Assembly (NCBI GenBank): GCA_903813345.2
Contig: CAIIXF020000010.1
Span: forward strand, 10,904,349-10,968,348
Direction: 5' to 3'
DNA length: 64,000 nt
Source of the DNA: Owenia fusiformis
Taxonomy: Eukaryota; Annelida; Polychaeta; Sabellida; Oweniidae
The position numbers and the translations under genes are program-made. This document shows, piece after piece, positions 423 to 21,400 of the stretch. Numbering within the stretch: position 1 is the stretch's first letter; the number at the start of each line of letters is the position of its first letter. The notes beneath the pieces were generated by a model. It did not search any database and was not told the DNA's origin. It saw only the letters and a list, made by a program, of their open reading frames with translations.

Positions 423-3400
423 GCAAGTGGGGCAGGTATTGTCAACTTCCTTTTCCCTCCTACTTTCATTCCTGTAAAAAGACAAAAAAAAAGTTAAAGG
501 AAGAATTAGGAATATCGAACATTTTCTCCAAAATCTGTATGAATATAAGAACCTAACAGAAATTGTTATAGACATTTAAATTTGTGTCAAGTTTAAGCAG
601 ATTATAAAGGATTCTAAAATCAGGTTATAATTCCATTATTTAGGATTTTGTGTCATTAACTCAAAGTACAATAAAATAATAAAGGCACTTTAGTACAGGG
701 TGGTCAAAAAAATTGGAAACCCTGCATTTTCTTCATATCTTTGTCATTTTAAGAAATTACTCCCTGATATTTCACACATCTGTAATTCAATTTCCTACCA
801 CCCTACCATATTTCATGACCATCAGACTGATACTCAAAATTTTACAGCACTTTGAACAACATGCTTCAGGTTTCACGTGCAGGTTTCTATACAGCACAAT
901 AGTGGCTACCAGTAATGTTCTTTAATGTGCTGTAACACTGACTATCAATCTGATCGTCATGAAATAAAATAGGCAGGTAGGAAATTAAGTGATGCACAAA
1001 TGTGTACAGTTATTTCTTAAAATGACATTAGGAAGATACAAGGCATTAACATGACAAAATGTCACCACCTAAAACAATTTGGTAAATTTAAAGCAAGTTG
1101 GAAAATACCTTTTGACCTTAAGAAGGTTTTTGAAGATTTGAGCTTCTGGGATCTTGTAGATGATTTTGAAAAAAGAAATTGTTCAATCTGAAGCAAGTTA
1201 AAACTAGTTGCACACAATATTATAGTGATCAAAAGTTAAATAGTATAAGCATAAGTCTCATAATTTGGTACTATGTACCAAATTTTGATAAAAGCTAAAC
1301 ATGTATACAGGTATAAAACATGCAAAATTGGTGATTACTCTAGGAGTCACATTTCATGTCATTTGAGGTTGAAAGTGTCCAAATGCCAGAAATGTTTCAG
1401 TCTCAGGATCGTTTGGCACAGTACAAACATTGTACTGTCTATACACTTTTGAAGATTTACACTAGAGTGGACTGACTTTTTCACATCAGCCCTTAGCGCA
1501 GAATTTATTTCTGTGTTTTTATTAATTACCTAATACATTATTTGCCCAGAGTAAGAAACATGACTGTAGCAAAATAATTAGAAATAGAGGAAAAATACTT
1601 ACTGTAGATTAGGTTATTTTGACAGTATTTTATTTGGTGAATTTCCAATTATTTAAATTTTGGTACATACCTATTTTGGTGGACACCTGGGGTTGGTTAA
1701 TAGTTCCTATATCTCAGTTTCCATTAAACTATGGTGACAAACATTCCCAGGAAAGTTTTGGTTAAAGATCAAAATTGTTGATTTTTCCATTTGCCTTGGT
1801 CAAAATAAAGTGTGACCAAATTAACCCAATCTACAGAATTACCCATAATCTTAAGATACCTGTAGAGACAATCAGAGTAGGTTGATCAACTGGCTGATGT
1901 TACACATTTTGTTGTTTCATCTGAGCTGATGTTAACCACTGTTGGATCAAATATTAAATACTGAAGTCCCTCAAATGAAATCAATATGGCATGATGGTGA
2001 CTGTGATGAAGTTGTCCCATATTGATAAGGTCAGATTTGTATCCATTTAAATGATATAATATATAGGTTTGCTTGTAGTTCCAGTAGATTCACTAAGTCA
2101 TGGTACATAGTATTTTACAGTACTTAGTACCTGTCAACATAAACACAGTAAGTATATCAATTGGTTGGTCAGAACTTTTGATTAATTAATGTTACTTATG
2201 ATACTGGTAGTCCACTCGTGTAGCTCAGTGGTAGGGCGTGTAAGCTGAATGATTAAATTCCAGGAATTCAATCTAATGCAACCCATATAGCACTATGGTA
2301 ACTGTAGTACACTTCTTCTGTACCTGCTTGGACATTGTCAGATTTGCAATTGGTATAAATGTGATCTATGGTTGTTCGAAGGTCTGTTGTATAGCCTGTA
2401 CTTATTTGCTTCATCCCATATTTGGAAAGATAGCTTATTATCAGATTATGTTCAGGTGTCATAACATTGATGTTAAAGTCTCCAAGTATGATGGTATTTG
2501 TAAAAGAAGTTGTTACTATCCTTGCTGTGTCCAGTGCTTCAATCAAGGTTTTCACCATAATTTGTGGGGGTTTATATAGTTCAACAATATGTATATCCGT
2601 GGATAGTTTTACAACTATTATCTCAATGCCTTTGTGGTTCTCCACCATAAGTGTTTCTAAATGAAGAGAAGTCTTATAATACAATGATGAACCATGGAAT
2701 GGTCTTAAATGAGACTGTTCAATGTAATGCACGCCTACAAAGTTGTCAATAACTTTATCATCACTTTCTTTAAATCTTGTTTCAGAAAACATCATAATAT
2801 GGGAACTTAGAAGTGCTTCATGTGCATTGATATCTTCAAGATGTTTGTGGAGTGACTGTGCATTCAGATATACTAATTTCAAGCTTGATTGTGTCCGTAA
2901 AAGTTTATTATATTCATCTCCTTGTGGAGCATTCCTTAACCTTTCAATTTCTGTTTGAACTTGATCATCAACTTTGATCTTGCTTGGGTCAAAGTTGAGC
3001 AGAAATAAGCCATCAAGGCTAGTTGCACGACTCAGTGCTACATAATGCACATGTCTGCTTGTTCTCCCGGTAAAATCAATGACAACTTTATTCATGGTAT
3101 CTCCTTGTGCTCTCCATACTGTTTTACCATTAGAAGGACGAAGGGGAAATTGTTTTCGTAAAACTCGAGCATGCTTGCTTCGTCCAACTTGAAACTCTCT
3201 ACTTATTGGTATTATCGGTGTCCAGGATTTGTCAATAAGCTGTGTATATAAATGCTTATTTTGCTGTCTTGTCATTTTGCCAATACGTGCTTCATTAAAA
3301 TGTACCCAAATAACACCAGATGCATAGCTGGATGAGATGGAGGAAATGTCTTTAACGATACAATTTGCACCATTTGTGAGACCATCCTCAACGTCCATAT

Positions 3401-6400
3401 TTACAGAAATGTCATACTTGAGTCCTACAGAGATCTTTAACATATTTGACAGTTGCATTGTTTTTGCAGGATCATCAGGAATTCTTTGCAGGACTGCTGA
3501 TTTGTGCTCAGATGATAGATCTCCAACAACTACATCATATGCTTTAAAATGCTGTTTGCGTAACAAAGAAAGTGAATATACAGATTCATTGTGTTCATTG
3601 ACTTTCTTATTACTGAGAAAAAGGTGCTGCTCATTAAGTGGATAGTTATCACTGTCTCTACAAATGCACCTACTGCTAAATAACTCTATGTCGGCATCTG
3701 TATGTGTCCCTACACGAAGTCTGTTAAGAGCTTCTGCAAAAGTTTTCTCTTTTTGTCGAATCACTTCAACTAACTCCATGATTTGAAAATTATGCCACAG
3801 GTTTGTAGCTAAAGAGCCATACCCCCTTTTCAGATCAGAAAATATCCAGTTATCGCAAACTGGTGCAAGTTGTCCAAAATCACCAACGGCAATAATTGGT
3901 AATCCACCAAAATCTTTAGGAACTCCAGTAATTTCTTGTAAGCGTTTATGAATAAAGGTTAACATATTGTTGCCAACCATGGATATCTCATCCACTATTA
4001 AAAGTTTCAAATTGTGCAGTTTGTGTCTAAGCGTATTTCGCTTATCTGATGTCAATGGTTCATAATTAAAACCTTGATTTGCTGGCACCTTGAATATAGA
4101 ATGGATTGTATTTCCCTCTATGAGGAAGGCAGCCTTCCCAGTTGGTGCTGCAACCAAAATAAATATGCCATCTGGTGGATTAGACACCCTGCTGTTGAAA
4201 TATTTTGTTAAAGTTTGATATATAGCTTTTGTTAAGTGTGTTTTCCCTACACCAGCACCTCCATTGATAAATTTGTAAATTGCAGTATCACATGTTTTCA
4301 GATGATGGACAATATGATTCAAAAATCCCCTTTGCGTTATTGTTAAAGATCTCATTAATTGGGAATATTCTGTTTCTTGCATTTCTCGGGTTGCTTTCAA
4401 CTGCTTATCTATATTACATGATTGATCTGTAGAATAATGACAGGTATCATCTCGCTCCTGTTTGTTCTTTTCATCTATAGCTACATCTCTCTCCTCATTT
4501 GCCTCAGTACAAGGTGCAATTGTATCATCGATGTAGGGCTCATTTACTTCATTTTCCACCATATCCATAGCTTCATCAATATATTCAGAAAATGGTTCAA
4601 GCTTGGCTTTTTGTAGGTTGATGTCCTCTTGTCTTGTAAAGAACATTTCTTCATACGAAGAATGAGTTCCTTTTATGTTACTTTCTTTTCTCCAGGACGT
4701 ATGTAACATAAGCTGTTCACGGTAATGGTTCTCGGGATCTTTTTCTTTGTTGTAATGAACATATCGCAGAATGTAAGGTTTTTTTCTTTGAGTTGGCTGC
4801 ATGGACTTTGTTTTAACATCATAGTATGCAGAATATTCAGCAAATGTACAATGTTCAAGTGAATGTGGCCTATCACAATACCTTTGTACTTGGTCCTTGC
4901 AGCTAATATCTTCATCATCATCATCAAGAGTTTCAAGTACATTTCTGGGTTTAAGTAAAAATACTCTGTTTTCTTCAGGGCTTGTGTTCACAAACTTTAC
5001 TGCTCTCGAGGATTGAACCATTGGCAACTGAAGGCAAATGTAACTTGCTTCTTGGGCACTTATTTCCACTGAATTTAGAAATTTGTTACCAATGGTTTTT
5101 AATTGATCTCGAATAGAACTTGCTCCTCTTTCAACTTCTTCACAGCATGATCTTAAAAGCTCACTCATACCTTTCTGGTCTTTCATAATGTATGATGAAA
5201 TGTACATAGCAACAGCGTATGAGTCTAGACAAATTTGAGAGTCCATGTTTGCTTTCCAAAGTTTCAACAGAAATGGAATATAGGCATTGCTTCGTATTTC
5301 AGATGGCTGTCGTTTCAGAAAAAGTGTCCTTTTTTTCAAGCTGGCTGATACAGCAAGTAAATACATTTCTTCAGTAAGTTTGGTTTTTGAGAGAAAATCT
5401 TCAAATGATATGTCCTCGCCAAACTTAAGACCATTTATCACTTCATTGATATGGGACCAATTTTCTGTATGTTTTTTGAAATCAGGATTATCCTTGTCTA
5501 AAGGATATAAAATTGTTGTCGATGACATCGGTGGTAGAGGATATCCAAATCTGCACTGGAACTTTTTACCTTTTCTACAAGTGTGTGTGTGCCTGTGTTG
5601 TTGGAGTTGAACCAACTCAGAGAGTTCTTCATCTTCTTCATTTGATGGTATATGGCAGGAAATAACAGAATCGACATAAGCAGTAATTTCAATATCTTGG
5701 CAGTGATTAATATTTGGTGCTCCATCCAACCAAATAAGGGAATGGATATGTGGACTGCCCCTATTTTGGAATTCTACCCTGTAGAAGAAATCCTTCATTT
5801 TTTTAATTGGAGAATCCTTACTCTTTAATGTGTGATTGAAGAGATAATTGACTCTGTGGTTAAAATGTCTGGCACACATAACTGGATCGAGTTGAATGAG
5901 CCTGCACTTTTCAGACCATTTCAAATCCCTTGCTTCCTGTAGTGTTATATCTTCACCATCCAACTTAGCAAGTGTTTGAAGCAAATGAGGCCATCGTGTT
6001 TCAGCCGAAGAGAAGCTACAGAATAGAGTTGGAGGTCCAACAGTTCTAATCATTGCTAGTAGATCTTTGTGAGCTTTTTGGTAATAGGGAGGTGATCCTC
6101 GAAGGGTTTTTAATATTTTATATCCCTTATCATGGTGAATTAAATTAGTTATATGTTCTGAATCTTTCACCTTCGATGCTGTGAGTTTTTGCCCTTTTGT
6201 CTGGAGTTTTCTGATGGCAATATTCGCCTTATCAGATAATTGCTGCATTTGTAGTTTCTTGGTTTTAAAGAAAATATTATCTGTGCATTGAGCTGCTCTT
6301 CTGTCAATGTTTCTTAATTCAGCTTTTACCAGTTCACTGTAATACAACTTTTTCTTGCTTGGTCTTTCAGACTGAGGAGTTCGTGAAGAACCAACAAAAA

Positions 6401-9400
6401 TGTTTGGAAATGCTAGCTCTTCGCTATACATATCTTGGAATATATTTAAAGGAATGTTATACTGACCTGGAGCAATGTTGTACACTATATCCCTTTCATT
6501 TTCCTCAATATAATCAGGGGATGTGAGAAGTGTATCCAAGTTACCATGTTCACTATCTATGGCAATCTCTTCCCAAACCTCTTCATTTATATTGGATTCA
6601 ACTTGTATATCTCCTGATATGTCTTTGTCATTACTAATTGAATTTCCTCTCTTCTCATTGCAAACATAGGTGTTACTTGCTGTCAGGCAGCTATCATTTT
6701 CATTACTAACATTTGGTATAACAGTGCTCAATCCTTTTACATTGTGGCCTGTTAGATGAGTTACATCAGCTAGTTTGAAATCTTTCTCTACAGATGTCTG
6801 TATACATGTCAATTGGTACTGACACCCAATGTTATTCTCATACAACTTGAATATATGATTAACAGTTGCAATTAGATTTGGAAACCTCATCAATACTGCT
6901 TTCCCATTACAATGTAAAAGACCTTTGGTGTTTCTTGAGTGTGAATCAAACCAAAAGTATTTGTTCTCTCGTTTCATTATAGCAGTCGTGAAACCTGCAC
7001 ATGTAACCATTACATCTGATGAATGTTCTAACGCACTGCTCAATGCTTGAAATACTTTGTGTTTTTCATTCAAAATACCAAAGTAACACATATCACACTT
7101 CATCTCAACTTTCTTAGTTTCATAATAGTAATATTTTGGCAACTCATCACTGTCATAGTAGTCATACTTGTGGGTATTTGAATTGTAGACATGATCACCA
7201 CTCTGAAGAACATAATTCATATCATGCTTTTCCCAGTACCTTGCATTTTTAAAAGAACTGTATCCAATAGCTGCAAATGCCATCGGTGTACACTGTTTGC
7301 CACGACTGGAGTCTTTAAATGTTGATGACCCTTGGTGATACGAAGCGATTGCTGAAAGAGTACCTTTCCCATTTTGTTTTCTACTGAAATCAGGTTTAGT
7401 ATCATCTGATAGAGAAGGTTCCATTGATTCTTGGGAATGCAATGATACACTAGCACCTGAGGAGGAACACATGCCGGCATCATGTAGTGTTCCTGAACTT
7501 AAATATTTGCTTTCACTAGAAGGTGGTGATTTAATTTCTAAAGAACTATCTTTTCCTTTTCCTGTTGGTACAAAATCATCATGTAAGCATTTTAGTGGTG
7601 CTGGTGATGGAACCATACTCCCACCTTCAGTAACGGCACTGTCTAATGGAGGAACCACATTCTCAGGATTTTCTGTTCCAGACGTTGATTGTCGAGATTT
7701 TAGAGGATCTTCTGGTCCATGTTTAGATGGTGAAGTTGAATTCAAACCATCAATTGTATTAGTATTGTCTTTAGGTACAATTCCATGATGATATTCTGTT
7801 CTAGTTACTTTCTGTGTCTTGGACCTTTCTAAATAGTTTTCAGTTTCGTCTATGGTTGGTTCAAATGATTTCCAATTTTTATTAGTTTGTATACCTTCTC
7901 CTTTAAACAATGTTTTCTTTGTGAGAATTTCTGCTGCCTCTCTTAATTTTTCCGGCCTGACATTTTCTGAAGAAACAAAGGACTTGTACTTCAGATGTCG
8001 TTTAAGTTTTACCTGTATGGTGTTGTCATTACTTGGCAACCTTGGTAACAATGTCACTGTTTGTATTACATTTGCCGGAACATTTACAACATTCCCAGTT
8101 ATCTTTTGTTGCCCTCCGGAGGGTGCAGCACGCAACTTCATGAATGGTAATCTTGGTGATAGCAATCGCCATTCAAGTGGAGTAAGGTCTCTCAATTCCA
8201 ATGGGATAACAGGAAATAGTGTTTTATTGTATACTGACACAGATGGAATATGACCATTCTTGATTTGCTTAGAACATGTCAAACAAATCCATTCTATATC
8301 CCTGACACTTTTTGTTTTAGTACTACAAAGCCTTGCTGAATCATTAAAAACTTTAAATTTCTTGACACTGCAACGATAGAACATTTGGTGACATGCTGTA
8401 CACACATAAAATGGCTTTTTAGAAGAGTTCATATTGAAATCTTTGATCAGCTGCTCTGTTTTAAGTTGTCCGGTGTGTTTCCCTTTTTCTCGCAATGTTG
8501 TCTTTTTTCTGTATTTATCACTCTTCTGTCTGATTTTCCTTGCTATTGCACGTGCTGCTATCTCTTTTTTTCTTCCAGGTCTTTTTTTCTTCAAGTTGTT
8601 TTCTCTTTCTTTGTATTCTGGATTTTGTCTTTTGTTTGCTTTCTTTTGTACATCTACTGTTATCTCTTTTTTTCTTCCAGGTCGTTTCTTTTTTAGTTCA
8701 TTTTCTCTTTCTTTGTATTCTGGATTTTGTCTTTTGTTTGCCTTCTGTTGTACAATTTTTGCTATCTCCTTTTTTCTTCCAGGTCGTTTCTTTTTTAGTT
8801 CATTTTCTCTTTCTTTGTATTCTGGATTTTGTCTTTTGTTTGCTTTCTTTTGTACATCTTCTGTTATCTCTTTTTTTCTTCCAGGTCGTTTCTTTTTTAG
8901 TTCATTTTCTCTTTCTTTGTATTCTGGATTTTGTCTTTTGTTTGCTTTCTTTTGTACATCTTCTGTTATCTCTTTTTTTCTTCCAGGTCGTTTCTTTTTT
9001 AGTTCATTTTCTCTTTCTTTGTATTCTGGATTTTGTCTTTTGTTTGCCTTCTGTTGTACAATTTTTGCTATCTCCTTTTTTCTTCCAGGTCGTTTCTTTT
9101 TTAGTTCATTTTCTCTTTCTTTGTATTCTGGATTTTGTCTTTTGTTTGCTTTCTTTTGTACATCTTCTGTTATCTCTTTTTTTCTTCCAGGTCGTTTCTT
9201 TTTTAGTTCATTTTCTCTTTCTTTGTATTCTGGATTTTGTCTTTTGTTTGCTTTCTTTTGTACATCTTCTGTTATCTCTTTTTTTCTTCCAGGTCGTTTC
9301 TTTTTTAGTTCATTTTCTCTTTCTTTGTATTCTGGATTTTGTCTTTTGTTTGCCTTCTGTTGTACAATTTTTGCTACCTCCTTTTTTCTTCCAGGTCGTT

Positions 9401-12400
9401 TCTTTTTTAGTTCATTTTCTCTTTTTTTGTATTCTGGATTTTGTCTTTTGTTTGCTTTCTTTTGTACATCTTCTGTTATCTCTTCTTTTCTTCCAGGTCG
9501 TTTCTTTTTTAGTTCATTTTCTCTTTCTTTGTATTCTGGATTTTGTCTTTTCATTTTCTTTCTAGAAGTCTCGTATTCACATAGTTCTTCGTGCTTTCTT
9601 TTTCTGTATTTTGCCATATATTCAGCTCGTGACTTTTTGGATTCTTTATTTTGGTGTAATATATCTTTTTTGGGAGATTTATCCTCAGACAGTTCTTTTG
9701 CCATTTTGTGTTCAGCCGTATATTTAGCACAATACCTTTTTTTAGGCAAATCTTCATTTTGATTGGTTTTACTTAGTTTCTTATTATTCAATAACTGTTC
9801 TGTTCTACTGTATTTTGTTTTTTCCACTTGTTCACACTTACTAAGTTCTATTTGTACAGCATGAGATTTTTCTTGTTTATTTGATTTCTTGAACCAACTA
9901 CTTATGATTGAAGGATCCTCTTGAACTGCACCACTGTTCTTTTCTTTTTGTTTTTCACCTCTTTCCATGGTTGACGATGAACTGCTGATCACTTTAGTTT
10001 ATGTCTGAAATGACAAAATAACAATAAATTGAGAACAGATGATTTTTAACAAATTATTGAATAAAACATGAGTATTTTTAAAGTGCTGTTATATTTTATG
10101 TTATATAGTTAAAGGAAAACAGTGTTTTTGAATATAAATAAACTGATATCAAATGTTCTTTGCACATTTATATGGAAAGAAAATTTATATTTAAATGTAT
10201 TTTCATTTACTAATCTTGTTGACTAAATTGTTATTTTGAAGAAAATGTAAACGTATTGCAATAACATCATAACATCCAAATGTTCCAACTTCTTTCAAAA
10301 TGTGAAGAACATTAATGCTTTCATGCCAACAATAAACTTATCACTGTACAGGAATATGTGTTTAATAATCATGATTTATACAATTAATGAAACAAAGAAA
10401 TTCATGGATTAAAACACCTATCCCTGTAAAACAAATAATCAACATATTTGAAACACTGAACTTTTGTTGTAAAGCTTTTTTCTTAATTCAGTACTTCTCA
10501 TCTTTGGTAACTGTTTTCCACTGTTTTTCTCTCAAATGATTATACTTAGACATTTACTTCAGACAGAAAATTTGTAGCTGTTCAGTTTTTCAGAATGGAA
10601 GCATAAATGAATATGTTGAAGTGCCACAATGAAGAGAAGACCAAGAACTATTCTTGAGACATAGAAAATTTTTTCTTTAATTTGGGCAACATTCATATTC
10701 AACTAAAAATTTCCCTTAACTGTCATATACTAATACCTACTAATATCCATATATACTTACTATATCTGAAGAATTCAAAGAGCATATAGGTGGAGAAAAG
10801 AATAGATATAAGCCCTTCCCTAAGTTCAGGCCTCTTGTATGTATTCTTTTCTTCAGCTATATGCTCTTTGTAGAGCCATTCCTGGGTGAGTATCCAGTTC
10901 CTAGGTTAAAAGAAAAATGGTATAAGTAATCTGTAAGTAAAAATTGGTGCAAAATTTTAATTAAATGTTAATATGTGTAGAACCTTCATAGGACTGTATA
11001 CCCTGACCTTATATGACTAAATTATATATACTTATATGACCTTCAACCAAAAATACTGATATGTAGTCTTGAACTTAGGAAACACCGTTTATGATTTAGT
11101 TTGATAACCTCTAGTCAATTTGAAGCAAGTTGAAAAAAGACCTTTTTGACCTATTTTGACCTTGAGAAGGTCATTGAAGGTCAAATGTCAAATCTTAAGT
11201 CAGATTTGAACTTCTTAGAACATGTAGATGATTTTGAAAAAAAAATTCGTCAATTTGTAGCAAGTTGAAAAAATACTTCTTTGACTTTTTTTGACATTGA
11301 GAAGGTCATTGAAGGTGAAATGTCAAATGTAAAGTCAGATTTGAACTTCTGAGAACATGTAGATGATTTTGAAAAAAAAATTAGTCAATTTGAAGCAAGT
11401 TGAAAAAAGACCTTTTTGACCTTTTTTGACTTTGAGAAGGTCATTGAAGGTCAAAATTTGAACTTCTGAAAAGATGTAGATGATTTTGAAAAAAACTGGG
11501 TCAATTTGAAGCAAGTTGAAAACAGACCTTTTTGACCTTTTTTGACCTTGAGAAGGTCATTGAAGGTCAAATCTTAAGTCAGATTTGAATTTCTGAGAAC
11601 ACGTAGATGATTTTGAAAAAAAAAATTAGTCAATTTGAAGCAAGTTGAAAACAGACCTTTTTGACCTTTTTTGACCTTGAGAAGGTCATTGAAGGTCAAA
11701 TGTCAAATGTAAAGTCAAATCTAAAGTAATATTTGAATTTCTGAGAACATGTACATGATTTTGAAAAAAAAATTTAGTCAATTTGAAGCAAGATGAAAAA
11801 ATACCTTTTTGACCTTTTTTGACATTGAGAAGGTCATTGAAGGTCAAATGTCAAATCTAAAGTCAGATTTGAATTTCTGAGAACATGTAGATGATTTTGA
11901 AAAAAAAATTAGTCAATTTGAAGCAAGTTGAAAAAAGACCTTTTTGACCTTTTTTGACTTTGAGAAGGTCATTGAAGGTGAAATGTCAAATCTTAAGTCA
12001 GATTTGAATTTCTGAGAACACGTAGATGATTTTGAAAATTTTTTTTAGTCAATTTGAAGCAAGTTGAAAACAGACCTTTGTGACCTTTTTTGACCTTGAG
12101 AAGTTCATTGAAGGTAAAATGTGAAATCTTAAGTCAGATTGAATTTGTGAGAACACGTAGATGATTTTGAAAAAAAAATTTAGTCAATTTGAAGCAAGTT
12201 GAAAACAGACCTTTTTTGACCTTGAGAAGGTCATTAAAGGTCAAATGTCAAATCTAAAGTCAGATTTGAAGGTCAAATGTCAAATCTGTCAAATCTAGTC
12301 AGATTTGAATTTCTGAGAACATGTAGATGATTTTGAAAAAAAATTTAGTCAATGTGAAGCAAGTTGAAAAAAGACCTTTTTGACCTTGAGAAGGTCATTG

Positions 12401-15400
12401 AAGGTCAAATGTCAAATCTAAAGTCAGATTTGAACTTCTGAGAACATGTAGATGATTTAGAAAAAAATTGAAGTCAGTCTAAACAGTATTTGTTAAGTTA
12501 TAGGAAGTTGTAAGAAATTGTTACAGACGCCGGACGCCAACCGCCAGACGCCGGACACCAACCGCCAGACGCCGGACGCCAACCGCCGGACGCCGTCAGA
12601 AAAAAACGGAGACCATAACAATATGTCACCACTTTTGGTGGTGACATAATAAGAAAAATGGTGTAACAGTTTCCAGTTTTTTTGACGACTCTGTAGTGTA
12701 TGTCCTGACATGTCTTACTCTTTACAATGCCATTTTTACACTGAAAGATATGATGATGTTTTTTAACCATACAATTTCATGACATAATTACACTACAAGA
12801 TACCACACCATGAACAGGGTGAGCCTATTTCCTACCTGCTACTCCAACGTCCCAGCCTTTGATAACTTCACCTGCTCCAAGTCTGAACTTGAATGGTTTT
12901 CCTCCTTGTGCTGAGTCAAAGACCTTGCCATTCTTTAACATGCCTTTGTAGTAAACACCCACCTGGGGGAAAAACATTGTTTTATGCATTTATTTTATTT
13001 TATGAACCAGAGGCCATGAAAAGAAACTTCGAGAAGTTTAAAATTCCTAAATCAACTGATTTTACTCCCATGATTTATGAAAGGACAAGGACTGAAGACA
13101 AGAAACTGACAGGAGAGAAATATACATGTAGCTCTATGGAGGGGGTACATATACTAAATAAAATATTTATGTGTTCATTTTATTTAAGTATTCTGATGAT
13201 ATTGTGAATATTGCCTGCAATTTTTTCATCTGCAACTTCGACAGATTTTACCTATTAAAGATGATTATTCTTTATAACTTTTACAATATTTGAATGTGAT
13301 GTCATAAAGTAACTGTATTTCCAAATCTAAGATACAACTTGATTCACAATCGGATATGGCTTACCATTTTTCCAGCCTTTGCTTCTGGTCCATGGCCGTC
13401 TTTTGAGTCTTCTACTATAAGACCTCCCTTTAGCGTTTTCTTCACAGATTTTGGAGTTGGTTGGGTCTGTTTCTTGTTGGTCTCATTCTGAGCTTCCTTC
13501 CCTTTCTAAAAATACATGTTTAAATGAATACTCAATAGATTTCCCATGTAAAATAAAAATAAACAACTCAATTAATAAGTTTTAGCCAAGAAAAAAAGAT
13601 TAAATGACACAAATGAAAATGGCATATGGCCAGCATTAAGTTTTTAAAAATCATATTGTTAAAGCTTCCAAATGTAACATTGAAGCACTCTACTGCTGTT
13701 ATGGGGCAAAGATGCTGTTACGCTTCCAAGTATAAAGTATCAGATGTCAACAAAATTGCTCTATTACTTTTCAAGTAATAGCAACATTTTTTTTAAGAAA
13801 ACATATACAATAGGGCAGTAGGTGCCACTTATCACATAGTTGCCATTTGCCATATGCTTGACAGAATAATAAAACTGAAAAGGGAAGAAGTCCTTACCTT
13901 GGCACTGCCATTGGTTGCTGGTTGTGCTTTATCATCTTGTTGTTCCTCATTTTTCTTCTTTTTGTTTTTCTTCTTTTTCTTTTTACTAGATTGTGTCTCT
14001 GGGGGTGTCTAGAATTGAAGAGATATTTCAGTCAATCAGTGTCTGACATCTATGTGAATGGGACATAATCTAGCTGGATAGGCTAACAAGCAATTGTTTA
14101 CCAAATATTCTCTTACACAATGACAAGAGTTGTTACATTATTATATCTCAAGAAATTTTGCAGCATTGGCCAAATATATGTTACTTAAATGGGAAGGAGT
14201 ACATCACAAATAATGAACAAACATTGGATTTCGTGAAGAATACATGAAAAAATATTGCAATATAAGTTGCAAATATTTCAGTCTTGTATCAAGTCCGTCC
14301 ACCTCCATATATACTATATTGTTCCCTGAATAACTAAAAAAGTACTAAAGGGGGGAGACCTAATGAGAAAATAAGAGAATCTTACATCTGGGACTGTTGG
14401 CTTGGGAGTAGGAGCCTCTTCTTTCTTATCCTTATTTTTCTTTTTAGAACTCTTCGATTCTTCCTGAGGTTTTTCTTGTGTGGCTGTTGCTTGTTTTTTC
14501 TTGTCTTTCTTGGACTTCGAGCTAGCTGGTTCCTGTATATAACTTGCCTGGGGATCTTCTTCATCTTCCTCGTCAGATTCCATTTCTACGGACTTCAGGA
14601 AATCATCATCACTCAGATCTACAAAGGGAAAACTAGCGTTGGATGTGTAATTGTACAAAATCATTTAATCTTTGATCAAAATTTGAATTTCTAAAACACA
14701 ATCCTTATTGCAGAGATCAATGAGTGATTTCTACAAAAACTACCATTTCATTTACCACTGTTTCATATAGGATGTCATCAATTTAAGGGTGGCTTCAGTT
14801 CAGACTTGCTTTCATTGAAGGTCCAGGATAACATTAATTTTTCAGTGTCAAATACTTTCTGCAGTATTGTTTAGTTCTGTAAGGTTCTAGGCTGATTAGT
14901 ATTTTTCTCAGTGTTTTGATTGATGCATTTATTTATTTCATTTGAATCATTACCATCATCTTCCTCCTCTTCTCCAGAATCTTCCTCATCATCATCATCG
15001 TCATCATCCTCCATCTCAGAGTCTTCTTCTGAGTCTTCATCTGATTCTTCTGCCTCATCCAACATAAACTAAAATAAATATATACAATTTATCACTTGAT
15101 CTGGAACTTAATGTCCTTCAAAGAAATGCAATAAGTTTAGGAAAGGTGGATAGGGTCTAATCCAAAATTACTTTCACAAATAATTCAGCTCCTTCATTGT
15201 ACATAATGAAAATTGTACTTACATCGTCATCTTCTTCATCACTGTCTTCATCTTCCTCTACTACTACTTTCTGTTTCTTCTTTTTACCAGTAGCTTCTTC
15301 GGCGTTTTTCCTTTTGCTTTTCTTTAGTGCTTCTATAGCTTTAAGTTTAGGTATTTCCTCATCTGAAACCAGTAAACACTTAGCTTTGAATCACAGCAGG

Positions 15401-18400
15401 TTCAAACATCAATCTGCCATGTATACAAAGTTTTAGGGAGCCAGGTTTTTTCTTAGAAAATCCATATAAAAGTAAACTCCTTAATACCAATGGTTTTATT
15501 ATATTATGCATATTGACACTGTTTTGTTTCAGTTCACTTTAAGGAGTTGGCAAATTTTCTTTATGGTCAATGATAAATTCCTAAAATATCATAACACAAG
15601 GAGGCAGTTCGAAAAGTCAGTTTCTGACGGTGAAAAAAGGATCAGAAAATAATTCTGTTCTTAGATTTGTAGAAGATTGCTTTACAGACCACTAGGATCT
15701 TCATTGGCGCAGGACATTGAGAATTGTGGATGTTGCAAGACCAATCGCCTGATCATGTAACTAGGCGATTGGTAATGTAAGAGTTTCAAACAAGACTTTA
15801 CCATTTAAGTTTGTTTCAAATTCAAGCTGTATCATTGTATAGTAATTGATTATTCATAGGCAGACACATCTTGATAAATGAATCTGCTAAACAGTCTGTC
15901 TAAATAATGCTCTATTACCTTCAGATGATTCTTCCTCTCCACTCTCATCACTCATCTCTTCCATACCCTCAAAGTCTTGCTGATCTATATCATCCTCTAC
16001 CAAATAACCTGTGAGATGGACCACACCTACAACGATAGAGAATATAGTATGTATAAGCAATTTTTCCATGAACTATATGATCTAATGTGATTATCTCTTG
16101 TAAGCAAACCTTTGAACTCGGGTTCCCACCATCATTCAAAGTAACATACAATAGCCTTGCACTTAAAAGCATTCATAAGTCATTGAGCTATGGGCTTAAA
16201 TCCTTAAGTAGATCAATGTAAATGAAGCATACATACCCTCTCCATTTAAGAAAAATGTGACCTCCTCTCCCTCTGTAAAGTTCAAGTCAAGCTGTTGGTT
16301 GTAGGTTTTCCCATGTTGCAAGACAGCTAGCAAGAATTCAGCTTTGTTTGTAGAGATCATTACACTAACAGGCTTGTGCTTAGCTGAATCTGCAAAGACA
16401 GAAACATTTTTCAAAGAGCAAACACAAAAAGGCAGTTAGCCTATGATTTTTATTATTCTAAAATTGACTCTAATTTTTCAACTATCTAGTGTGCAAAAAT
16501 GAAAAAAATTCTGTTCAGAGTTCTTCACAGGATTTTTTCTCAAGTAGGTGCAAATTTCTCATTTTCACAATTCAGACTGAAATTGGTCAAAATATGCCCA
16601 TTTTTTATGTTTTTCCTTATTTTCAAGTGAGTGCAAATGGATTCTCAGTGGGTGGAAGCCTATTTTTGAAATTTCAGGTGGGTGCTGCACCCACTTGCTT
16701 TAAGGCTGGGGAGATCACTGCACAGATTTACAGATAACTATCCTCTTCTCCTTACTTTTCAATGCCCCAATACAAGGGATCAAAATGCTTTTCAGCTTTA
16801 AGTAAAAAGCAATGTTAGTGACATCCATTTTTTTACTTACACATGAAACTTTTTAAACATTTTGACAGAGAAAAATATATACTGTATCATAAACGACTAG
16901 CGGATCTAGGGGACGGCATGTGCCCACCCTAAAATCTTTCAAAAAATAATATGTTTTCAAAAATCCGATAAAACACCTGTTATAGTTTTAAAATCTCTCA
17001 TAAAATTTAACCAGGAAATAAATAAAAGTTGTCTCAAATTAGATTTAGTATTTTTCATGAAGTCATTCATATTTTAATTGTGAGAAAATGCTCAGATTGC
17101 CAGTAATTGCACTCTAATTTTCACAAAAATGTTTGGATGCACCCCCATAGCATATGTTCAACATTCATTCTTGCAACTTTTTGTGATATATTAGTGCCCC
17201 CTCCAGCCCAAAATCCTGGATCCACGTGTGTAAACTGATGTTTAGGCCTCCAGGTAAATCTTTATCAATTCTGGATAAATCATATCTCCCTGGTCTAACA
17301 TTTTATCACATTTTGAAAAAGTATTGTGTTGATGCCGTCTTGTGCTGATGGGCATGGGCCTGTATGGGTAGGCACCACAACTTGTGTGCCAAACTCAAAT
17401 TTACCTTTAGGTTCGAGTGTTGCTGCTGATATGTGGAAGGATCGCTCAACGGTCTGAGTATACCGCTTTCCCTCATCAAGCGTAACTCCTACAAAAAATA
17501 ATATGGCAATTAGTCGAGCATGGTTAAGCATATAAGTAATGAGTTCAAAATAACATGGGATTCCAAATTACTAAGTGCTAAATTAAAATTTCTCAACATA
17601 CAGAACTACAACCAAAAGTTGGTGACACAAAAAAAGTTATTTCTCGCTTTGTGTAATGGGACAGATAGGTACCCTTCATGGTCCCATATGGCCTTGTCCC
17701 ATATAATTTGAGAGAGCCGCATGTTTTGAGTGAGAATGTTTCTGGTGATGTTTAGAATCCAATGAGTCAAGAATTATGTGCATAGTAGTGATGTTTTTTT
17801 GAGACTTTTGAAAAATAATGTGTGCTTTCTATGGAGCCGTTGCAAGACCAGAACGAAGAGATGGTCTTGGTACGAGCATGGGCTTTCTGTTTCTGTTGAA
17901 AGTCCATGGTATGAGAGGCAAGATAAAATGTAAAGTACTCAGGTGTGAATATTTTCGAAACAAATGCGTGATATATACACATATTTTGTACCAAATGCGT
18001 GACATAAACGGCAATCGCGTGCAAAGACCGACAGAATGCGTTCGCTTTTTTTCGACGTTCACTTTTTTACCATTTCGGCATTTCACAAAGAACTATTTTT
18101 AAAAATATCAACAAAATGCGTGATTTGCGTGATATTTGATCATACACGGGCATTCTCGGTAAATAGTACCCAAATCTTTTTTTAAGTTTGTTATCGTTCT
18201 AAGGGGTCCTTTTTATATAAAACTGTATTTCCATAATGTTATCAGGGGTTATTGGCTTAGATATGTGGATATTTTAGTAAATTACTTATCTTCAGTGTCT
18301 TATATTAACTCGGTAAATGGTACCCAAAACGGCTTTTTCAATGGCAATTTAACACAGACTGGGTACTATTTACCGAGTTAATATAGGGGAAGGGACCAGT

Positions 18401-21400
18401 TTAGTGTCTTATATAACTCGGTAAATAGTACCCAAAACGACTTTTTCAATGGCAATTTAACATGGGCTGGGTACTATTTACCGAGTTAATATAGGGGAAG
18501 GGACAAGTTCAGTGTCTTATATAACTCGGTAAATAGTACCCAAAACGACTTTTTCAATGGCAATTTAACATGGGTTGGGTACTATTTACCAAGTTAATAC
18601 AAGACACTGTTATATCAAAAAAATTCAATTATTTACTTTTTATATAATATATATCATTCTTAATTGCCCTTCATTCTAAAGAGGGATTTATTTGAGGGGC
18701 CTTATATAAAAAAGAGGCATGGTATTTTTTGGGGGTAAAGAAAAAGAAAATTAAAGAAATATAACGATTTTAATTTGGGTACTATTATAATAGTACCCAA
18801 ATAAATAATACATATTGTTGTTTAATATTGGATAATGAAATAATAATAATACCAAAATATGAATAAATTATAGAGAATAAAAAATATAAAGATTTTAATT
18901 TGGGTACTAAAATGATAGTACCCATTTCAAATTATTTCTTAAAGGTTCTACAACTAATAAGGAAAATATATTTCACTACTTCAGTAAGACATTGATTCAA
19001 AATCAGCCGTTATTGCAATTTTAAATACATTTTTCTATATGATTAGCCTTATTAGTGTATGTTTTTTACTATATAAAAAGTACCCAAAACGACTTTTTCA
19101 ATGGCAATTTAACATGAGTTGGGTACTATTTACCGAGTTAATAAAGGGGAAGGAACAGTTTAGTGTCTTATATTAACTCGGTAAATAGTACCCAAAACTA
19201 CTTTTTCAATGGCAATTTAACATGAGTTGGGTACTATTTACCGAGTTAATATAGGGGAAGGGACCAGTTCAGTGTCTTATATTAACTCGGTAAATAGTAC
19301 CCAAAACGACTTTTTCAATGGCAATTTAACATGGGTTGGGTACTATTTACCGAGTTAATATAGGGGAAGGGACCAGTTCAGTGTCTTATATAACTCGGTA
19401 ATTAGTACCCAAAACGACTTTTTCAATGGCAATTTAACATGGGTTGGGTACTATTTACCGAGTTAATATAGGGAAAGGGTCAGTTCAGTGTCTTATATTA
19501 ACTCGGTAAATAGTACCCAAAACGACTTTTTCAATGGCAATTTAACATGGGTTGGGTACTATTTACCGAGTTAATATAGGACACTTTTATATAGAAATTA
19601 TTAAATTTTTATTTTTTTTAAATATTTTTTTATCATCCTTAATTGCCCCTTCATTCTAAAGAGGGATTTATTTGAGGGGCCTTATATAAAAAGGGGCATG
19701 GTATTTTTGGGGGTAAAGAAATAGAAAATTAAAGTACTATAAAATATTTTATTTGGGTACTATTATAATAGTACCCAAATAAATAATACATATTGTTGTT
19801 TAATATTGGATAATGAAATAATAATAATACGAAAATATAAATAATTATAGAGAATAAAAATATAACGATTTTAATTTGGGTACTAAAATAATAGTACTTA
19901 TTTCAAATTACTTCTTAAAGGTTCTAGAACTAATAAGGAAAATATATTTCACTATTTCAGTATGACATTGATTCAAAATCAGCCGTTATTGCAATTTTAA
20001 ATACATTTTTCTATATGATTAGCCTTATTAGTGTATGTTTTTTACTATATAAAAAGTACCCAAAACGACTTTTTCAATGGCAATTTAACATGAGTTGGGT
20101 ACTATTTACCGAGTTAATATAGGGGAAGGAACAGTTTAGTGCCCTTATATTAACTCGGTAAATAGTACCCAAAACGACTTTTTCAATGGCATTTTAACAT
20201 GGGTTGGGTATGTAACGACCCTTGATACCAAGTTGCTACTACAGTCCAGCTGTAGTGGCTTAAGCCTTTATAGCTCAGTAAGTAGAGCATCAGTCTTTGG
20301 ATCCAAGGGTCCTAGGTTCGATTCCCACACGGGGCATTGAATTTAGCACACTTTCTTTCAATTTCTTTATCTGGCTTGTTACACTATGCTCGTTAGTTAA
20401 TTAGTTAGTCATTCCCCTGGGGCGCCCCCGGGTCATTACATTGGTGTCAGATGTGGGATCAGAGCATTGGTTGTATCCTTTGCGCCCTTGTATATATGGT
20501 AGTCATTGCTAGGGAAGCAGGGCTGACCACGAGGACGTGGTCCTTTCAAAGGGGGAGATAGTGTAACGACCCTTGATACCAAGTTGCTACTACAGTCCAG
20601 CTGTAGTGGCTTAAGCCTCTTTAGCTCAATCGGTAGAGCATCAGACTTTGGATCCAAGGGTCCTAGGTTCGATTCCCACACGGGGCATTGAATTTAGCAC
20701 ACTTTCTTTCAATTTCTTTATCTGGCTTGTTACACTATGCTCATTATAGTCGTTAGTTAATTAGTTATTCCCCTGGGGCGCCCTCGGGTCATTACAGGTA
20801 CTATTTACCGAGTTAATATAGGGGAAGGAACCAGTTTAGTGTCTTATATTAACTCGGTAAATAGTACCCAAAACAACCTTTTCAATGGCAGTTTAACATG
20901 GGTTGGGTACTATTTACCGAGTTAATATAGGGGAAGGTACAGTTTAGTGTCTTATATTAACTCGGTAAATAGTACCCAAAACGACTTTTTCAATGGCAGT
21001 TTAACATGGGTTGGGTACTATTTACCAAGTTAATATAGGGGAAGGAACAGTTTAGTGTCTTATATTAACTCGGTAAATAGTACCCAAAACAACTTTTCAA
21101 TGGCAATTTAACATGGGCTGGGTACTATTTACCGAGTTAATATAAGGCACTTTTATAGAGAAAAATATTTGAAATATTTTGTTTTATATATATCATCCTT
21201 GCCCCTTCTAAAGAGGGATTTATTTGAGGGGCCTTATATAAAAAAGGGGTATGGTATTTTTGGGGGTAAAGAAAAAGATTTCTAAATTTTATTAGTATTT
21301 TGGTAGTAAATAAATTAAAAGGACCCCTTAGAATGACAATAAATGAAAAAAAACGTTTGGGTACTATTTACCGAGAATGCCCATACACGCTAAATTGATG

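Follow-up and report, generated by a model that had tools for sequence, protein, structure and literature searches.

An 11.6-kb stretch of DNA lies inside an intron of an FKBP gene of the annelid Owenia fusiformis, and it raises three questions: whether it is a complete mobile element with definable ends, what kind of element it is, and whether it and its relatives have moved recently. We analysed the whole 64,000-nucleotide region that contains it (the window). We conclude, with a probability of roughly 95%, that it is a full-length, coding-intact and recently inserted Helentron whose protein most likely mobilises the element itself and has spread its short non-autonomous relatives (HINEs).

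Three FKBP exons, whose boundaries were set by eye, lie on the minus strand at 13365-13505, 12836-12962 and 423-471, and their joined peptide matches FKBP_C (E 5e-23). The intron that separates the second from the third (472-12835) is 12,364 bp long, or 753 bp minus the Helentron, which occupies 1039-12649 (11,611 bp, minus strand). The first-pass annotation had placed the element within the intron and on the strand of the host gene, and the exons on either side, all on the minus strand, bear this out; the Helentron gene may be co-transcribed with FKBP. For the host this is an ordinary intronic insertion. A tRNA scan of the window found none.

Ends of the element and its empty sites

Read in gene sense, the Helentron runs from its 5' end at 12649 to its 3' end at 1039. 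A genome search with window positions 1039-1700 gave copies that start at base 1039 in 40 of 40 scored places (the best 40 of 2513 candidates, the window itself among them; the best match begins at query base 1), and the remaining rows listed for this search are internal repeat matches. Outside CAAGGCATTAACATG the flanking DNA of the 20 copies read and of the window varies, bar one constant A. At the other end GGTGGTGACATAA is present in 18 of 18 right ends read, followed by a biased NAA and then by divergence, and the same right end closes five HINEs and two further full-length copies. An element extending over this NAA beyond GACATAA was considered and dropped given the empty sites described below, and the right boundary is 12649. 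Since an A lies just outside the left end and the right end also closes with an A, the placement of both ends could be shifted by one A.

The flanks themselves supply an empty site. Positions 694-1038 and 12650-12695 align with the left and right parts of a MITE, and when the window is joined from 1038 to 12650 a full-length MITE copy is restored, with gaps elsewhere and none at the junction. Against the short-form copy L019, for example, the two parts align over 391 of 391 bases with 85% identity, 38 mismatches and 8 gaps. Eleven MITE copies (the two ranking highest behind the window plus 9 more, from the best 40 of 2583 candidates) were aligned with seven trial joins, in which the right flank started at 12647 to 12653; a start at 12650 scores best with ten of them, by 1-3 points, and the eleventh, L019, favours 12649 by one point. 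Six bases to the left of the junction the window also carries TTAGG, five extra bases that are absent from all 11 aligned copies, so the MITE empty site is good, not perfect, evidence. It could be argued that the two halves come from different MITE copies, or that the site was rearranged, so that the empty site is illusory: MITE copies are common (of the 2583 first-look candidates 40 were scored), and the TTAGG and the 8 gaps in the match to the nearest copy point the same way. We consider this very improbable, as the junction is gap-free, nearly all copies prefer the same join, the same ends emerge independently from every scored left end, and two other empty sites are gap-free.

The first of these belongs to a full-length copy (C11), whose joined flanks match, over all 150 bases, at least 38 element-free places; among the places listed one is 100% identical and 37 are 99% identical. 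The second belongs to a HINE (L036) that sits in a 98-bp tandem array. Its joined flanks match 12 places of the array at 99% and 4 more at 91-96%, those at 99% over the full 150 bases, and its empty-site junction was read directly. Both sites are exact and show no target-site duplication. They are the yield of a single composite search with 14 of the 27 joins that were built; the remaining 12 speak neither for nor against an empty site, because repeats filled the scored places (the best 40 of 2252 candidates). A second copy of the FKBP stretch, that is a haplotig without the insert, was not found in the present assembly. The exact ends rest on other copies as much as on the MITE. The ends originally proposed, and the single MITE split between the flanks, agree with all of this; the one correction is that AAGAAAAATGG, which had been placed at 12650, starts at 12651.

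Together with the MITE site of the window this makes three empty sites, of which two are free of gaps and one has gaps that lie away from its junction; they show insertion into a T-rich target without duplication. The target reads TT(A/T/g)^T in gene sense: T stands on the 3' side of the insertion and three bases to its 5' side in 28 of 28 sites, and two bases to its 5' side in 26 of 28, while the base on the 5' side is A in 13 sites, T in 12 and G in 3.

Coding capacity and type of element

The open reading frame list gives a single frame of 2574 codons (2268-9992, minus strand), of which relatives were found, so the earlier description of a gene unbroken over 7.7 kb was correct. Its listed start at 9992 is a GTG, and the next methionine is codon 9. 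Near its beginning, tandem-repeat searches and comparison of copies identify a coding minisatellite of 102 bp (8555-9563, minus strand), which specifies a basic 34-amino-acid repeat; the window has 10 units of it, and the two further full-length copies have 8 and 7. The domains that follow, all on the minus strand, are DUF6570 (7914-8255, Pfam E 6.6e-13), a herpes-tegument-like deubiquitinase (VTD) domain (6831-7364), a Helitron_like_N (Rep) domain (5733-6263, Pfam E 3.4e-26), a PIF1-like helicase domain (3714-4346, Pfam E 2.4e-24) and a C-terminal AP-type endonuclease domain (2277-2876), by which Helentrons are recognised. The VTD piece matches 8ADD by phmmer (E 1.1e-11) and Herpes_teg_N in Pfam with E 0.0023, which is below the curated cut-off; in the alignment with the 8ADD crystal structure the Cys (QCT) and Asp-Ser-His stretches are shared, and these are presumably the catalytic residues. 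A VTD structure predicted from the single sequence had a pLDDT of 28.8 and was discarded. The endonuclease piece gives Exo_endo_phos_2 at E 4.1e-4, under the Pfam curated cut-off, and was without a PDB match up to E 1; its counterpart in a relative (L098), 38% identical, passes the Exo_endo_phos cut-off (E 9.7e-8), and it is on this relative that the assignment rests. An NCBIfam scan of the whole protein was without a match up to E 0.01.

Both ends of the element are structured. On the minus strand, the 3' end, which terminates in CTTG, carries a predicted hairpin TGACA-TTT-TGTCA 13 nt from the terminus (1052-1064) and a subterminal inverted repeat, GGTGGTGACAT (1059-1069). The 5' end folds into a terminal hairpin with an 11-bp stem (12622-12648) that includes the 5' subterminal repeat ATGTCACCACC (12637-12647), two bases from the end. 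The subterminal inverted repeats are palindromic. Repeat searches also found a 21-bp minisatellite near the 5' end (12524-12595) and, at 11112-12434, 135-bp satellite-like tandem repeats that are common to the HINEs.

Rep (HUH) and PIF1-like helicase domains in one protein, the endonuclease and the termini identify the element as a Helentron, a complete and coding-intact one as the first-pass annotation had it; the family is new, the transposon type already known. Canonical Helitrons insert between A and T, have the 3' motif CTRR and lack an endonuclease. Assignment to these, or to Helitron2, could appeal to the A on the 5' side of 13 of 28 insertions, as in A^T targets; however, T or G stands there in the rest, the 3' terminus is CTTG, the subterminal inverted repeats are palindromic and an AP-type endonuclease is present, and we consider this assignment very improbable.

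The Helentrons of Thomas et al. (2014, PMC4067079), in the parts of that paper used here, have a Rep/helicase protein with a C-terminal AP endonuclease, palindromic subterminal inverted repeats, a 3' palindrome, tandem repeats, a T-rich target and HINE partners. The present family resembles them in its protein domains, repeats near the 5' end, 3' palindrome, tandem repeats, T-rich target, unmodified target site and non-autonomous partners. It differs from the mite families in those parts, where the 3' subterminal repeat is 38-60 nt from the 3' end, in having this repeat 20 nt away, and from the Helentrons there in that its 5' hairpin is multiplied in tandem at some copies and in that an RPA gene was unseen, there being no second open reading frame of at least 100 amino acids outside the main frame (an intron-bearing gene could escape). 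The VTD deubiquitinase domain has been described from Helentrons (Erven et al. 2022, PMC9741609, as far as drawn on here); ours shares the herpes-tegument-like domain, in a separate family and a separate animal, and its deubiquitinase is predicted from sequence.

Copies, age and the HINEs

The search for other full-length copies that had been proposed yielded two, making three with the window (among the best 18 of 946 candidates). Both are about 99.9% identical to it outside the coding repeats: of 2070 codons outside the repeats, 6 are changed in C6 and 4 in C11 (nonsynonymous/synonymous 3/3 and 3/1, changes too scarce to reveal selection on the protein). The five HINEs that were read completely, chosen because both of their ends ranked among the best matches of the end searches, are 98.9-99.6% identical to one another. 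Both comparisons favour the suggestion that the insertion is recent, and it is apparently very recent. The protein may still be functional. Alternatively, the Helentron is already silent, its intact frame reflecting youth alone and the HINE burst being over; the small number of full-length copies and the broken start of the C11 frame fit such an ending, and we rate it a serious possibility at somewhat under even odds. On the other hand, the coding sequences of the copies differ by about 0.1% outside the repeats, and two of the three frames are fully open, with lengths that differ by exactly two 34-amino-acid units.

With at most 2 mismatches allowed, 2938 left ends are present in the genome (control 0). 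Those that were read or paired are mainly short non-autonomous derivatives, and most of the approximately three thousand end-matching sequences are probably short relatives of the Helentron. The HINEs share its ends: over their left 179 bp the five match the window at 98.9% identity, and four of them are about 90% identical to it over the right 1.5 kb with the repeats. The 20 insertions (C1) used in the target-site comparison were hand-picked from the first 100 listed of the 2938 left and the first 100 of 2564 right ends, on the criteria that the left and right ends lay near each other and that each was exact; this selection in part explains why they are short and have exact ends. Copy numbers from the scored searches with the ends and the gene are lower bounds, as these searches of the genome score best candidates only.

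For the Cg_HINE elements of the Pacific oyster, the authors were unable to connect the HINEs with any autonomous Helentron (PMC7492417, in the portion consulted). The Owenia HINEs are like these in their 5' subterminal repeat with an inverted repeat, microsatellite-like stretch, central satellite-like repeats, 3' subterminal repeat and palindrome, and TT-rich target without duplication; unlike them, they have autonomous copies with the ends and repeats of the HINEs read. The most likely action of the 2574-codon protein is to nick the element, peel off one strand and insert a copy at a T-rich site without target-site duplication. One copy came to lie in the MITE within the FKBP intron, and machinery from very few intact copies most likely spread the short HINEs, which retain both ends along with the satellite-like repeats. 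In this one genome there is a Helentron family whose ends are known to the base and whose empty sites are independent, with intact frames in some copies and a great many non-autonomous relatives. It is well suited as a natural system in which to study how Helentrons transpose, what the deubiquitinase domain does and how satellite-like repeats are spread by Helentrons.

Tandem 5' hairpins

The 5' terminal hairpin is tandemly repeated at 146 junctions (control 0). The unit is about 45-51 bp and is present in two to four tandem copies at some insertions, and each junction between units carries an A-run of variable length. It is conceivable, though we think it rather doubtful, that these arrays are the footprint of a repeatable step in Helentron transposition, in which, for example, the T-run just inside the 5' end would be re-used as an acceptor or re-initiation site; if so, they would be a genomic record of 5'-end processing. 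Separately, close end-to-end junctions were seen 18 times.

Termini and insertion site

The first-pass annotation had taken the ends of the Helentron at window 1039-12649 from the halves of a split foldback MITE (694-1038 and 12650-12695), and comparison with other copies in the 498 Mb source genome (where the window is C10:10904349-10968348) confirms this to within one base. With window:1039-1700 as the left-end query, 40 places including the window itself were scored of 2513 candidates, and in all of these best 40 the best match starts at query base 1; four (window included) cover the full 662 bases at 97–100% identity, and the remaining matches listed are to an internal repeat-like stretch. 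An A lies directly outside CAAGGCATTAACATG in the window and in 20 of 20 copies read, and the DNA beyond is otherwise dissimilar. On the right (query window:12500-12720; 39 scored places besides the window) the main matches stop at query bases 151–168, most commonly at 153, and 18 of 18 right ends read have GGTGGTGACATAA and, beyond it, N-A-A-like host bases. Read in the direction of the element's gene, the 5' end opens with TTATGTCACCACCAAAAGTGGTGACATA, a hairpin whose stem is 11 bp long, and the 3' end is GGTGGTGACATTTTGTCATGTTAATGCCTTG, which includes a short hairpin and the subterminal repeat corresponding to that of the 5' end; a 21-bp minisatellite and satellite-like repeats of 135 bp lie close to the 5' end. 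This is the same layout of ends and repeats as in the Helentron/HINE plan outlined in PMC4067079 and PMC7492417.

The position within a host gene intron, in the host's orientation, also holds. Three minus-strand exons with boundaries set by eye (13365-13505, 12836-12962 and 423-471) match FKBP_C when joined (E 5e-23), and the intron at 472-12835, 753 bp long if the element is subtracted, houses it on the FKBP strand. From this position and strand, the element's gene is likely to be co-transcribed with FKBP. The adjacent stretch 12696-13550 matches itself alone in this assembly, which therefore holds no empty allele there.

At the MITE junction, the form most frequent among intact copies, AAGATATTAGGAAAATGG, is equal in length to the joined window flanks, AAGATATAAGAAAAATGG. 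Of 11 copies aligned, the short-form L019 matches the joined flanks along all 391 query bases (85% identity, 38 mismatches, 8 gaps), and a second short-form copy, L020, matches them at 78%; the other nine contain an extra middle part and so match in two pieces. In seven trial joins a right flank beginning at 12650 scores highest against 10 of the 11 copies, by 1–3 points, and L019 favours 12649 by one point. Five extra bases, TTAGG, within window 1023-1038, six bases left of the junction, are absent from all 11 aligned copies; they either predate the insertion, as an older change in this copy, or were left behind by it.

Two other insertions have cleaner empty sites than the MITE. Along their full 150 bases, the joined flanks of the full-length copy on contig C11 match 38 listed element-free places, 37 of them at 99% and the remaining one at 100%. 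The HINE at locus L036 is located in a 98-bp tandem array whose adjacent units carry CATAAAACAATAAAT, identical to its joined flanks there, and over all 150 bases these flanks match 12 places at 99% and four at 91–96%. Thus no base was duplicated or lost at these two sites, save for a one-base (A) sliding ambiguity. Where both ends were read (28 insertions), A always lies to the left of the element; on the right the first host base is T in 13, A in 12 and C in 3, the next is A in 26 and the third A in all 28, giving in gene sense the target TT(A/T/g)^T.

The Helentron gene and its relatives

An ORF search finds a single minus-strand frame of 2574 codons (9992 to 2268) and no further ORF of at least 100 amino acids elsewhere inside the element. 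It encodes DUF6570, Helitron_like_N and PIF1 domains and a deubiquitinase domain (VTD) resembling those in herpesvirus tegument proteins, which matches crystal structure 8ADD (E 1.1e-11) and has Cys and Asp-Ser-His stretches in common with it. The C-terminal 200 residues give weak matches to endonuclease families, under the curated cut-offs; the counterpart in L098, a relative on C1, is 38% identical and exceeds one such cut-off. A 34-residue basic repeat in the N-terminal part has 10 units in the window, 8 in the C6 copy and 7 in the C11 copy.

A protein search of the genome, in which 18 places were scored of 946 candidates, returned the window element itself, near-full copies on C6 and C11, a broken copy on C47, one relative on C1 at 52% and 13 more distant relatives at 31–33%; among these best 18, 12 of the 13 distant ones lie outside contigs C1–C12. 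The three complete elements measure 11,611, 12,118 and 11,859 bp. The C6 and C11 copies are 99.5% identical to the window over 8.2–8.3 kb (repeats partly included), and the C47 copy 98.9% over 5.0 kb. Outside the coding repeats, 6 of 2070 codons differ between window and C6 and 4 of 2070 between window and C11; in the non-coding stretch 1039-2267 the identities are 98.1% (6 mismatches, two gaps) and 99.8% (3 mismatches), respectively. The C6 frame is open throughout (2508 residues), and that of C11 has a broken start. These findings support the reading of the window element as a complete, autonomous and probably recent insertion, and the element represents a new family of an already known type. 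That the Helentron is now silent is compatible with this reading, and we put it at somewhat below even odds.

The distant Helentron proteins (four on C515, three on C13, with others on C104, C399, C432 and elsewhere) have open frames of up to more than 3000 amino acids. The VTD piece has one 42% match on C4 and weak matches at 39 further places (E 1.6e-9 to 0.12), some of them in distant Helentron frames. A tRNA-like A-box stretch, TAGCTCAGTGGTAGGGCG, at window 2215-2270 adjoins the end of the Helentron gene and may be a SINE or tRNA fragment that was captured; ARAGORN called no tRNA there. Farther along the window, palindromic units (CTCGGTAAATAGTACCC ... GGGTACTATTTACCGAG) form a long tandem array, recognised by eye at 18290-21140. 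Two near-identical repeats interrupt it at about 20212-20797 and contain a tRNA-like stretch (TTAGCTCAATCGGTAGAGCATCAG...GGTTCGATTCC), in which ARAGORN likewise made no call.

HINEs, tandem 5' units and end-to-end junctions

At two or fewer mismatches, the genome contains 2938 occurrences of the 31-base left end and 2564 of the 32-base right end, counting tandem 5' units; the same patterns read backward gave 0 and 0. Five fully read HINEs are 1928–1950 bp long with mutual identities of 98.9–99.6%, and over the left 179 bp they share 98.9% identity with the window element. On C1, twenty pairs of ends picked by hand are spaced 1.1–2.6 kb apart. Judged by their lengths, mutual identity and shared left end, the HINEs read or paired look like recently spread internal-deletion derivatives, to which most of the 2938 left ends probably belong.

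More than one 5' unit is present in three of the 20 hand-picked C1 insertions (two, two and four units), and junctions between tandem 5' hairpins, marked by A-runs of varying length, number 146 genome-wide (100 of them listed; control 0). At L092 (C1:9864610-9864960), L082, L084 and L012 the 5' terminal hairpin unit of about 45–51 bp is repeated two to four times, with A-runs of varying length at the junctions, and L007 has a shorter, 34-bp form.

Right ends lie 0–9 bases from left ends at 18 places genome-wide (control 0), one of which, at C8:7284939, has no spacer. Many of the 18 could be independent insertions next to each other; two junction pairs, 472 and 1368 bp apart, carry identical spacers. 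Close end-to-end junctions are expected of rolling-circle elements; both tandem arrays and head-to-tail junctions are described for Helitrons of plants and bats in PMC5876387. The pair 472 bp apart lies at L095 (C1:3326600-3329800), where direct reading showed a head-to-tail array of HINEs of about 472 bp, with identical junction spacers at about 1207-1240 and 1679-1712 of that locus.
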